Assembly (NCBI GenBank): GCA_947176415.1
Contig: CAMWQJ010000001.1
Location: forward strand, 1 to 64,000
Source of the DNA: an uncultured Ruminococcus sp.
Lineage (GTDB): Bacteria; Bacillota; Clostridia; Oscillospirales; Ruminococcaceae
DNA: 64,000 bases
Reading direction: 5' to 3'
Every line of letters starts with the position of its first letter. Positions within the stretch are counted from its first letter, which is position 1. Below the pieces are notes generated by a model that saw only the letters and a list, made by a program, of their open reading frames with translations, was not told where the DNA came from and made no database searches. Made by a program: the position numbers and the translations under genes. Below, one piece after another: positions 8,215 to 17,356 of the stretch.

Positions 8215-9444
8215 TTATTTATTATCTGCCATGCCGTTCATATACTCATCAAGCGTCTTGACAGGGCTGTCTGTTGTTGTTGAAGTATAGGAATAGTAGC
8301 TTAAAATAATTGAAGCGTCAACAACATCTATCAGACCGTCCTCGTTTACGTCGCCTTTTTTGATTGTGGGCTGTACAGGTATGTCGGGAATAGGGTCGCC
8401 GATACGTACAAACACACAGCCGTATTTATCAGAATACTTTTCCGCATAAGCCTGTGCGGTGGAGTTTTCGTAGCCGTTTATTACAAGACCGTTAAGTGTG
8501 TTCGGGTGGTCGAAAATCTCGCAGTCCGGATTCATGATAGTAACAACCTGAATTGAGGAACTGTCATAGAAAGCGTTATTTCCGATATAGTTCACGGATG
8601 CAGGAAGAGTAACCGAAGTTATTCCGTTACACTGATAAAAAGCATACTCGCCGACAGTTTCAACGCTGTCAGGAATAGTAACGGAAGTGATTTTTGTTGT
8701 ATTTGAAAAACTTGAACCGCCTATTTTTTTAACGCCGTCGGGAATAACCACGCTACCTTTGCACTCGAATGCGTCGATAAGCACGTTATTTACAATAACA
8801 ATGGGGTTTTCCGCCCTTTTTTCCGTAAGCCACTGTGTATCATCAAATGCGAGCATTCCGAAGTCCGTGAGATTTTCGGGGAATGTAATATCTGTAAGTT
8901 TTTTACAGCCTGAAAAAGCCGAACTTTCAACAGCAGTCAGACTGTCTGGAAATGTCAGCGAAGTGAGTGAACCGCAGTTCTCAAAAGCCCCCATGCCGAT
9001 AGTTGTAAGATTGTTGCTGAACGTGACAGCCTCAAGGGAAGTACAGCCTGCAAAAGTATATTTTTCCACAGCTGTTACACTGTCGGGAATTATTACAGAC
9101 GAAAGAGAAGTACAGTTTTCAAAAGCCTGACGGCTGATAGTCTTTACGCTGTCGGGAATTGTCACGCTTCTGAGATTTGTACGCTCTCTGAAAGAATATT
9201 CCGCAATCTCCGTAACGGGCAGACTGTCTATTTCTGAGGGGATAACAACGTCTGTAACGTCTCTGTCACACGCTGTTATGCAAATCTCGTTATTCTGCAC
9301 TTTGTAGCTGAAACATTCATATGTATCCGCACTTGCCGTTACGGGCGATGTTACAGAGAAATTACTTCTTCCGACAGCAATACCGCCTGAAAATACAAGA
9401 GTCAGTGCAAGTACACCCGCAACAATTTTTATATGTTTTTTCAT
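8215..9444 (-). CDS. Secreted BspA-like leucine-rich repeat protein with a C-terminal single-repeat (half) dockerin
   Basis: Signal peptide; repeats of IPDSVxxIxxxAFxxCxxLxxVxxP; C-terminal GDVNEDGLIDVVDASIILSYYSY. Confidence 0.88.
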   Translation of the reverse strand: MKKHIKIVAGVLALTLVFSGGIAVGRSNFSVTSPVTASADTYECFSYKVQNNEICITACDRDVTDVVIPSEIDSLPVTEIAEYSFRERTNLRSVTIPDSVKTISRQAFENCTSLSSVIIPDSVTAVEKYTFAGCTSLEAVTFSNNLTTIGMGAFENCGSLTSLTFPDSLTAVESSAFSGCKKLTDITFPENLTDFGMLAFDDTQWLTEKRAENPIVIVNNVLIDAFECKGSVVIPDGVKKIGGSSFSNTTKITSVTIPDSVETVGEYAFYQCNGITSVTLPASVNYIGNNAFYDSSSIQVVTIMNPDCEIFDHPNTLNGLVINGYENSTAQAYAEKYSDKYGCVFVRIGDPIPDIPVQPTIKKGDVNEDGLIDVVDASIILSYYSYTSTTTDSPVKTLDEYMNGMADNK

Positions 9445-9541: not shown

Positions 9542-11473
9542 TTATTTTTCAATGAGTTTCTGTCTCATCAGGCAGAGGTCAAAAGAATCTAATATGCCGT
9601 CGGCATATAAATCAGCTTGTTTCCAGTCTGGAATTTCCGTATCAAACACACCTAAAAGATATTTCTGAAGCCATATAATATCAGCCACATTAAATTTTCC
9701 GTCGCCGTTTATATCGCCTGTTTTGCCGAGAGATTTAAATTTATAACCGTATTTTTCGGCGTATGCCTGTGCGGTTGAGTTTTCATATCCACATATTGTG
9801 CCATTGAAGTAATGTACCTCATTTTCCTTTATATTACTTGTAATTTTATCATCATCAAATTCACATTTAGAATTTAAAAAAGTTATTTCAGTTAAATTTT
9901 CACAGTTATGAAATGCATAATATCCAATGTTTGTAACACTGTCAGGGATTATTACTGATGTTAACTTCTTACAACCTTCAAATGCACAACTGCCAATGCT
10001 TGTAACACTGTCAGGGATTATTATTTCTGTTAAACTTGAACAGCCCACAAATGCTTCAACACCAATGCTTGTAACACTATCAGGGATTGTTATTGGTGTT
10101 AAATTCATACAGCCTGCAAATATACCTTCGCTAATGGTTGTAATATTGTCAGGGATTGTTATTTCTGTTAAAAGGTTACAACTAGAAAATGCCCTATCGC
10201 CAATGCTTGTAACGCTGTCAGGTATTGTTACTGATGTCAAATTTTTACAATAATAAAATGCATTACCACCAATGCTTGTCACGCTGTCAGGAATTGTTAC
10301 CGATGTTAAATTTTTACACTCAAAAAATGCACTATCTCCAATACTTGTCACGCTGTCAGGAATTGTCACCGATGTTAAAATACTGGATTCAGAAAAAACA
10401 GTATCGCCAAATGCACTGTTTCCAATGGTTTTAACACCGTCAGGAATAACCACATCACCAGTGCATTTCGTACCATCAATTACAATATTACTTACAATAA
10501 CAAGCGGATTTTCTTCCCGTTTTTCTCTGAGCCATTCTGTATCACGAAATGCATCACTACCAATACTTGTAACACTGTCAGGTATTATTATTTCTGTTAA
10601 ACGTGTACAGCTATAAAATGCCCACTTGCCAATGCTTGTCACGCTGTCAGGGATTGTTACCGATGTTAAATGATTACAAAGATTAAATGCACTATCGCCA
10701 ATGCTTGTAACGCTGTCAGGTATTGTTACTGATGTTAAACTAATACAGCTATAAAATGCATGAACACCAATGCTTGTAACACTGTCAGGAATAACCACAT
10801 CACCACTGCATTTTTCACCGTCAATCACAATGTTATTTACAATAACAAGTGGATTTTCTTTCTGTTTTTCTTTAAACCATGGTGTATCAGAAAATGCATG
10901 AACACCAATGCTTGTAACACTGTCGGGGATTGTTATTTCTGTTAAATTACTGCAATCATAAAATGCCAACTTGCCAATACTTGTAACGCTGTCAGGGATT
11001 GTTACTGATGTTAAACTATTACAATTCTCAAATGCCCAATCGCCAATGCTTATCACGCTGTCAGGGATTGTTACCGATGTTAAAGTATAACATTTATAAA
11101 ATGCACTATTGCCAATGCTTGTCACGCTGTCAGGGATTATTACTGATGTTAAGTTAATACAATTATAAAATGCTCTATAGCCAATACTTGTTACTCCTGC
11201 TTCAATAACAATTTTTTTAATTGCCTCTTTTGCAGAAGACCAAGGAACATCATCAGTATCATTAAAAGCTGTCATATCACCTGTACCGCTGATTATAAGT
11301 GTTCCCTCATCATCAAGCACCCATGTCAGATTTTCTCCGCAAGTTCCTGATTTTATTGTTTCTGCACTTGCCGTCATGGATATGGCAGGAGCAATACTTT
11401 CAGGAATAAGTGATACACTTCCCATAAGGCACACTGCCATAATGCCTGCTATTATTCTGTTGTGTTTTTTCAT
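9542..11473 (-). CDS. Secreted BspA-like leucine-rich repeat protein with C-terminal type I dockerin
   Basis: Signal peptide; about 17 IPDSVTSIGxxAFxxCxxLTSVT repeats; C-terminal GDINGDGKFNVADIIWLQKYLLG...ADLYADGILDSFDLCLMRQKLIEK. Confidence 0.93.
   Translation of the reverse strand: MKKHNRIIAGIMAVCLMGSVSLIPESIAPAISMTASAETIKSGTCGENLTWVLDDEGTLIISGTGDMTAFNDTDDVPWSSAKEAIKKIVIEAGVTSIGYRAFYNCINLTSVIIPDSVTSIGNSAFYKCYTLTSVTIPDSVISIGDWAFENCNSLTSVTIPDSVTSIGKLAFYDCSNLTEITIPDSVTSIGVHAFSDTPWFKEKQKENPLVIVNNIVIDGEKCSGDVVIPDSVTSIGVHAFYSCISLTSVTIPDSVTSIGDSAFNLCNHLTSVTIPDSVTSIGKWAFYSCTRLTEIIIPDSVTSIGSDAFRDTEWLREKREENPLVIVSNIVIDGTKCTGDVVIPDGVKTIGNSAFGDTVFSESSILTSVTIPDSVTSIGDSAFFECKNLTSVTIPDSVTSIGGNAFYYCKNLTSVTIPDSVTSIGDRAFSSCNLLTEITIPDNITTISEGIFAGCMNLTPITIPDSVTSIGVEAFVGCSSLTEIIIPDSVTSIGSCAFEGCKKLTSVIIPDSVTNIGYYAFHNCENLTEITFLNSKCEFDDDKITSNIKENEVHYFNGTICGYENSTAQAYAEKYGYKFKSLGKTGDINGDGKFNVADIIWLQKYLLGVFDTEIPDWKQADLYADGILDSFDLCLMRQKLIEK
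9900..11200. repeat. Coding tandem DNA repeats (about 69-72 bp units) encoding LRRs
   Basis: Recurring ccaatgcttgtaacactgtcagggattgttactgatgtt and close variants across the interval. Confidence 0.85.
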
Positions 11474-15987: not shown

Positions 15988-16020
15988 GGGCGGACTCCTG
16001 AAAAAAGTCCGTCCTTGTTT
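15988..16020. terminator. Bidirectional intrinsic terminator
   Basis: GGGCGGACT-CCTGAAAAA-AGTCCGTCC then TTGTTTT. Confidence 0.85.
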
Positions 16021-16026
16021 TATATA

Positions 16027-16533
16027 TCAGTCCTGCGAGATTCTGGAGTTTTCCGAATATCTCTGAAGAATCATACTTGCATCTACGACAGTTGAATGTC
16101 CGTCGCCGTTAATATCGCCATATACCAAGAAATTCTGTATCTCTGCTTCCGAATATTTATCAGTACCGACAGTCGAGCAGTCAACATAATAAGAAAGAAT
16201 AAGAGAAACGTCTACACAGTCAACCAGTCCGTCGTGGTTTATGTCGCCTTTTATCGTATCTGACGAGATGTCGGCAAGCTGTATGGCAAGCATATATGCG
16301 TCGTCATAGTTTACAATTCCGTCCTCGTTTATATCGCAGTGCGGAAACATTGCTTCGTATTCCTCGTCACTACATTCATCGTATAGGTCAAAAATAAGTT
16401 TAACGTCGAGATTGTCAACAACTCCGTCCTGATTTGCGTCACCTTTGAGAATGTCAGCATTTGTACACACAGGCACAGCCGATACGGCAAGAACGCAAGC
16501 CGAAAGCAGTGTTAAAAGTTTTGTTTTTTTCAT
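16027..16533 (-). CDS. Secreted protein composed of tandem dockerin modules
   Basis: Signal peptide followed by four EF-hand-like loops: DANQDGVVDNLD, DINEDGIVNYDD, DINHDGLVDCVD, DINGDGHSTVVD; no other domain. Confidence 0.9.
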   Translation of the reverse strand: MKKTKLLTLLSACVLAVSAVPVCTNADILKGDANQDGVVDNLDVKLIFDLYDECSDEEYEAMFPHCDINEDGIVNYDDAYMLAIQLADISSDTIKGDINHDGLVDCVDVSLILSYYVDCSTVGTDKYSEAEIQNFLVYGDINGDGHSTVVDASMILQRYSENSRISQD

Positions 16534-16556: not shown

Positions 16557-17279
16557 TCAGTCGAAAGCGTGTGAGGCAACCATAGACTGAATCTCAATAG
16601 CGTCACTTATTGTTACTCCGTCGCCGTCGCCGAAAACATCGGCATTTACGATACCCTGAATTGTCATCTGATACTTGTCGGGATTTGCGATAGACTGCAT
16701 TATAAGTACAACGTCGTCTATACTTACCTTGTTGTTGCAGTCTGCGTCGCCTGAAAGCGTTACTTCGGGAAGAGTGTTTACAACGTCCGTTACATTCAAG
16801 CGCACTGGTCCTTCAGGACAAACAAGAGTTCGTCTAAAACCTGTATCTTCCTTTACTTTTATTGAAAGTTCAAGCGCATATTCATATTCTATCACCGGTG
16901 TAATATGAAACTGTCCATTATATTCTATATCATTATATCCTATACCATTTTCTGTGAAGTATTTCTTTAAAATTTCAGCTTCTTCTTCGGTGTCAAAGCG
17001 ATATGAACCCAAGACAAATTCAAAAAATCTGCGACCCTCTAAGCCAAATTTGCTTTTGCCGTCTTCGGATATAAAGAATTTCAAATTAGGATTATCATAG
17101 TAATCGGTCATTTCCTGCCATGCAACATATTTTGTGTCGCCTACGTTAAACGAAGTAGTATATTGATTAATACCGTGAAGACCTGAACTTATTGCCCCCG
17201 ATGTCATTGCAGTCATTGAAACCGCACACACAGCCACAGCCGAAATAGTGGCTAACATTTTCTTTAATGTTTTATTCAT
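16557..17279 (-). CDS. Secreted dockerin-bearing protein with uncharacterised N-terminal domain
   Basis: Signal peptide; C-terminal LSGDADCNNKVSIDDVVLIMQSIA...NADVFGDGDGVTISDAIEIQSMV. Confidence 0.85.
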   Translation of the reverse strand: MNKTLKKMLATISAVAVCAVSMTAMTSGAISSGLHGINQYTTSFNVGDTKYVAWQEMTDYYDNPNLKFFISEDGKSKFGLEGRRFFEFVLGSYRFDTEEEAEILKKYFTENGIGYNDIEYNGQFHITPVIEYEYALELSIKVKEDTGFRRTLVCPEGPVRLNVTDVVNTLPEVTLSGDADCNNKVSIDDVVLIMQSIANPDKYQMTIQGIVNADVFGDGDGVTISDAIEIQSMVASHAFD

Positions 17280-17327: not shown

Positions 17328-17356
17328 ATTATATCACTTCATGTAGGATTTGTCAA
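17328..17356 (-). promoter_or_regulatory. Promoter of the dockerin gene pair
   Basis: Reverse complement of ATTATA-tcacttcatgtaggatt-TGTCAA. Confidence 0.75.

Follow-up and report, generated by a model that had tools for sequence, protein, structure and literature searches.

The gene at positions 16027..16533 on the minus strand of the window, i.e., of the whole 64,000-nucleotide stretch of Ruminococcus DNA analyzed here, encodes a real secreted double dockerin: a payload-free protein with a signal peptide, two dockerins, and nothing else, whose dockerin identity is confirmed by both profile and fold. A sequence-only reading of this DNA had not seen that the two modules differ in class, that relatives of the gene go together with a gene for a divergent ScaE-type cohesin-dockerin protein, and that this partner is missing here. 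It also needs one correction, i.e., the gene does not stand alone but comes second in a transcription unit predicted to hold two genes.

Identity of the double dockerin

The gene is a 168-aa ORF with an ATG start and a ribosome-binding site (RBS), AAGGAGG, immediately 5' of it. Residues 1-26 (16456..16533, minus strand; ...VCTNA) read as a signal peptide with an approximate cleavage site, and the orthologue N-termini are alike. Four Ca-binding loops, the number given by the sequence-only reading, lie at residues 32, 67, 97, and 140 and form two pairs, DANQDGVVDNLD and DINEDGIVNYDD in the first module (Doc1, residues 30-90; 16264..16446, minus strand) and DINHDGLVDCVD and DINGDGHSTVVD in the second (Doc2, residues 95-163; 16045..16251, minus strand), so that each module has two Ca-binding loop-helix repeats. 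Loops 1 to 3 are canonical and loop 4 (DINGDGHSTVVD) has T at position 9. The window has 144 open segments that are 100 codons or longer, and at least two strict loop motifs occur in this one only.

Pfam PF00404 (Dockerin_1) matches the protein in four stretches with an E value of 4.3e-12 and a score of 46.5 bits, the cut-off being 22.9, and no further family in Pfam and NCBIfam rises above its cut-off. The AlphaFold model, of moderate confidence (pLDDT 75, pTM 0.51), folds into two three-helix modules; a fold search of the PDB with this model returned 8x39, a double dockerin of Clostridium thermocellum, in first place and single dockerins after it, and 8x39 is a strong match by sequence too. 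ORF, Pfam, and fold together bear out the earlier claim of a signal peptide followed by two dockerins without a catalytic or binding domain. We rejected the reading of a truncated enzyme because orthologues at the same locus share the signal peptide, the RBS, the stop, and the length. The mature protein has four cysteines (residues 54, 66, 106, and 119), of which only Cys 106 recurs in several orthologues; disulfides particular to its own lineage are therefore possible.

Class of the two modules

The dockerins of this genome were sorted into three classes, for which the labels A, B, and C are our own. Class A ('FDLVLLRQ') is nearest to clostridial type I dockerins, class B is recognized by 'VDSVDAS..YY..S', and class C ('INDxVLIMQSxANPDKY') is found on a ScaC-like protein and on the proteins of contig C54. 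Doc2 scores 63 bits with class B, 28 with A, and 9 with C, and Doc1 22, 23, and 10, respectively, to be read against training members that reach 73 to 139 bits in their classes but were scored on their own models. By these scores Doc2 is assigned to class B, and Doc1, scoring far below those members, fits none of the three classes and is treated as an orphan. Orthologues show the same split between Doc1 and Doc2, with an exception of L061, in which Doc1 is B-like as well. Both modules are under purifying selection among close relatives (dN/dS about 0.12-0.38), and conservation is higher in Doc2, with a mean identity of 0.60 versus 0.45 for Doc1.

Against the PDB, the class B profile finds best 8ajy (1e-19), a ScaH dockerin solved with the ScaE cohesin, and its other top matches are 9gvb, a group-2 dockerin, and 4iu2 and 4wkz, X-dockerins with ScaE/ScaG cohesins. 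By sequence class, Doc2 thus groups with dockerins whose structures were determined with ScaE, and we infer that its target would be ScaE-type cohesins because the dockerins of known structure closest to its class were solved together with ScaE/ScaG cohesins. A Gly-Arg recognition dyad characterizes the group-4 dockerins of Ruminococcus flavefaciens (PMC5301203); it is absent from Doc2, which has VDCVDVS and STVVDAS where 8ajy has IDGRDAT in one repeat, and Doc2 is therefore filed as a similar class and not as a group-4 dockerin.

Cellulosome of this genome

The sequence-only reading had proposed a search for cohesin or scaffoldin genes, whose absence would have counted against it, and they are present. 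The genome (G000; 1.94 Mb, 91.6% complete), Ruminococcus-like in its gene content, encodes a Ruminococcus-type cellulosome with a sca cluster in the order scaC-scaA-scaB-like on contig C25, two adaptor scaffoldins carrying three ScaE-type cohesins on contig C54, and dozens of dockerins (57 Dockerin_1 matches, of which about 35 exceed the cut-off). In one C54 adaptor scaffoldin (L184 5745-7556) two ScaE-type cohesins flank a class B dockerin within a single chain, and a class C dockerin comes after the second cohesin. In the window itself, two more dockerin proteins are encoded close to the double dockerin (9542-11473 and 8215-9444, both minus strand); the product of the former is a BspA-type leucine-rich-repeat protein with a class A dockerin at its C-terminus, and a leucine-rich-repeat dockerin gene adjoining the leuA locus is also found in G051, G039, and G002.

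A coupled cohesin-dockerin gene in relatives

Full-length orthologues of the double dockerin occur in congeners, most of them between leuA-like and NUDIX genes as here, and this protein shares 40-47% identity with those at the leuA locus; a scan of genome contigs gave one additional weak locus. Immediately upstream of most orthologues, in the same direction, lies a gene for a secreted protein of 270-290 aa with an unrecognized domain and a dockerin. With a model of this partner (pLDDT 77, pTM 0.72), Foldseek placed cohesins at ranks 1-11 and in nearly all of the top 28, at E values of 2e-3 and weaker. Pfam Cohesin gave no match in 11 partner sequences, and such misses of Ruminococcus cohesins are a documented undercount (PMC11557425). 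A direct comparison of the partner's cohesin with PDB sequences gave no match either. A profile of the partner's domain alone, in turn, finds ScaE orthologues that match the solved ScaE cohesin 2zf9 at 5.6e-46, and hhalign relates the domain to the ScaE type at 91%; kinship to the C25 cohesins of this genome was undetectable. From the Foldseek matches, the ScaE orthologue hits, and the hhalign result, we conclude that the partner's domain is a divergent ScaE-type cohesin, a cohesin by fold and by homology to a proven one rather than by Pfam and with a putative dockerin-binding ability, and that the paired protein is probably a cohesin-dockerin adaptor.

We found the partner's cohesin domain in 23 of 125 congeneric genomes, two of these hits being ScaE orthologues themselves. 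In all 20 readable copies the gene downstream of the cohesin-dockerin gene is a free-dockerin gene (G062, G003, G056, G026, G077, G079, G052, G002, G151, G166, G089, G086, G031 twice, G171, G084, G021, G070, G024, and G172; G074 was left out, its contig ending there), a count that comes without a background rate of free-dockerin genes. About half of these copies are at the leuA locus and thus not independent of one another, but the whole represents about eight distinct neighborhoods. The free partner has two dockerins in most copies and one in three (G031:C6, G171, and G172); a few copies have three to four units or are split over two genes. The partner gene looks damaged in G003 (split frame) and G084 (in-frame TGA), possibly through assembly errors. 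In G051 the double dockerin directly adjoins the NUDIX gene, the partner being absent from the interval, and a partner gene was not found in G039 either; the double-dockerin gene is intact in both, so it can persist without the partner. Other congeners (L066 383-1758, L067 382-1758) carry free double-dockerin genes as a tandem pair, each product about 200 aa long, with no cohesin gene visible within the stretch examined.

Variation in the partner's cohesin is moderately correlated with that in Doc1 (0.53) and Doc2 (0.50), but we rejected this as a co-variation signal, since shared descent would give the same correlation. A clear exception is the pair G062 and G056, in which the partner cohesins share an identity of 0.48 and the double dockerins 0.85/0.90; diverged cohesins beside near-constant double dockerins argue against a strict lock-and-key relation or strict co-evolution.

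Probable replacement of the first gene of the unit

In this genome the first gene of the unit (16557..17279, minus strand) encodes instead a 240-aa secreted protein with an N-terminal domain of unknown type and a ScaC-type dockerin, and it fills the slot of the relatives' cohesin-dockerin gene. It is spaced 23 bp from the double-dockerin gene. Upstream is a promoter-like site (17328..17356, minus strand; TTGACA-17-TATAAT, its second hexamer preceded by TG, 12/12 matches), to which sites upstream of the partner gene are similar in 6 of 7 relatives, and 3' of the double dockerin the sequence forms a terminator-like hairpin (15991..16011, minus strand). The two genes are thus probably co-transcribed.

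The 240-aa neighbor is not a diverged partner, given that hhalign aligned little past the signal peptide. Nor does the partner seem to have been relocated within this genome: a search with the profile of the cohesin domain only gave no match in the assembly (91.6% complete, with the locus contiguous). With the promoter, the double dockerin, and the terminator kept and the first gene different, it is most simply supposed that the cohesin gene was replaced. The 240-aa gene has a paralogue on contig C39 of this genome (G000:C39), with which it shares 80% DNA identity across 750 bp, a stretch that coincides almost exactly with the gene. Secreted dockerin proteins of about 240 aa form a family, with an N-terminal domain lacking a Pfam match and relatives in 17 of 100 congeneric genomes; the C39 copy (L120 2910-3632) adjoins a gene for a trypsin-like protease.

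Proposed function of the double dockerin

We tentatively favor, at somewhat less than an even chance, that the double dockerin is a bivalent, two-faced adaptor. Once exported it would serve as a connector in the cellulosome: Doc2 would plug into ScaE-type (type III) cohesins, for which the three on the C54 adaptor scaffoldins are the candidates here and the cohesin-dockerin protein of the same transcription unit is a further one in relatives, and Doc1, of a different class, would bind another cohesin, so that two cohesin-bearing proteins are bridged. We favor this reading because two different conserved classes are combined in a payload-free secreted protein and the matching cohesin type is present. 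The class split kept in orthologues, the ScaE-type cohesins in the genome, the coupling in 20 of 20 copies, and the purifying selection all count for it; the single free dockerins, the lack of strict co-evolution, the missing Gly-Arg dyad, the absence of the partner here, and the failure to name a cohesin for Doc1 count against it. The three pairs with a single free dockerin indicate that the pair can do without bivalency. Of the roles that the sequence-only reading had offered, i.e., cross-linking of scaffoldins, capping of cohesins, or an adaptor, any may still apply, with cross-linking weakened as a general function by the single free dockerins.

These single-dockerin versions (G031:C6, G171, G172) put capping or competition close behind. 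Doc2 alone might occupy ScaE-type cohesins and limit or tune docking, with Doc1 adding little; it is the C-terminal dockerin that is of class B, and Doc2 is the more conserved module. However, most copies hold two or more modules, and Doc1 retains its Ca loops and is under purifying selection, which counts against a cap, a reading that we still rate not far below the adaptor. By analogy with the protease double dockerin dDoc_0689 of C. thermocellum, whose structure 8x39 is both the top fold match and a strong sequence match, the modules could instead be packed together with one working dockerin; we regard this as improbable, seeing that dDoc_0689 carries a protease whereas there is no cargo to anchor here, and a model with a moderate pTM of 0.51 cannot judge packing. 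A decaying remnant, drifting and without a present role after loss of its cohesin partner, might fit the absence of the partner from the genome, the T at position 9 of loop 4, and the 40-47% identity to leuA-locus orthologues, but is very improbable with the ORF, signal peptide, RBS, promoter, and terminator all intact and with G051 and G039 still holding an intact gene without the partner.

One locus outside these pairs deserves mention as a lead only, being from one genome and one short contig. On G157:C42 (L148 658-2853) a gene for an ECF sigma factor (184 aa) is directly followed by one for a predicted 342-aa membrane protein and that by one for a free double dockerin (192 aa). The 342-aa protein combines a short N-terminal part, a single predicted membrane helix, and a linker rich in Thr and Pro with the same divergent cohesin domain as in the partner (E 4.7e-19), which would form its outer part, and it could be a regulator sensing dockerins. 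That free dockerins in general act as soluble ligands for cohesins dedicated to them, and report or set the occupancy of cell-surface sockets, is a speculation to which we attach the least probability of all; if true, the G157 trio would serve to sense how the cellulosome is assembled, the dockerin being the signal that it receives.

The architecture of cellulosomes is usually taken to consist of enzymes mounted on scaffolds. The conserved pairing of a divergent cohesin-dockerin protein with a payload-free dockerin points to proteins that may serve solely to connect the scaffold, to cap it, or to tune it. Because Pfam does not recognize the divergent cohesin family, it can go unnoticed when Ruminococcus scaffoldins are surveyed. 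The gene pair also offers small parts that can be tested directly in binding assays and put to use in designer cellulosomes.

Comparison with known systems

The sequence-only reading had set out from dockerins normally attaching an enzyme or a binding module to cohesins; free double dockerins are already precedented (PMC12484212, PMC4217186). C. thermocellum has dDoc_0689 (PDB 8x39/8x3a) with an S8 protease, in which the first module binds a surface scaffoldin, the second is without a clear role, and the modules are packed, as well as partnerless double dockerins (PMC12484212). The likeness is in the two tandem dockerins, some of them without a further domain, and in 8x39 as the best fold match; the differences are the S8 protease of dDoc_0689 and the assignment of Doc2 here to a ruminococcal, ScaE-type class. 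Relatives here have a linked cohesin-dockerin gene, of which the portion of PMC12484212 at hand gives no description for C. thermocellum. The DocDoc protein ZP_09465996 of A. cellulolyticus, a double dockerin from a different genus, was entered into a screen of cohesin-dockerin binding because it looked highly unusual (PMC4217186). In the literature searched, with R. champanellensis papers outside its coverage, we found no conserved coupling of a free dockerin to a divergent cohesin-dockerin gene; free double dockerins as such are known from both C. thermocellum and A. cellulolyticus.

The closest parallels to the partner are in R. flavefaciens, for which the monovalent Coh-Doc adaptors ScaC, ScaF, ScaH, ScaM, and ScaO are reported and divergent ScaK-ScaP cohesins are mentioned (PMC5301203). 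The relatives' partner has the same Coh-Doc layout, and its dockerin matches the ScaH dockerin best in the PDB (8.3e-10). Unlike in those adaptors, its cohesin is missed by Pfam and is without a direct sequence match in the PDB, and the available part of PMC5301203 describes no linked free double dockerin for them. With respect to the cell-wall cohesin ScaE of R. flavefaciens (2zf9, 4iu2), the partner's cohesin is a divergent relative, but the partner is without the sortase signal of ScaE and has a C-terminal dockerin in its place.
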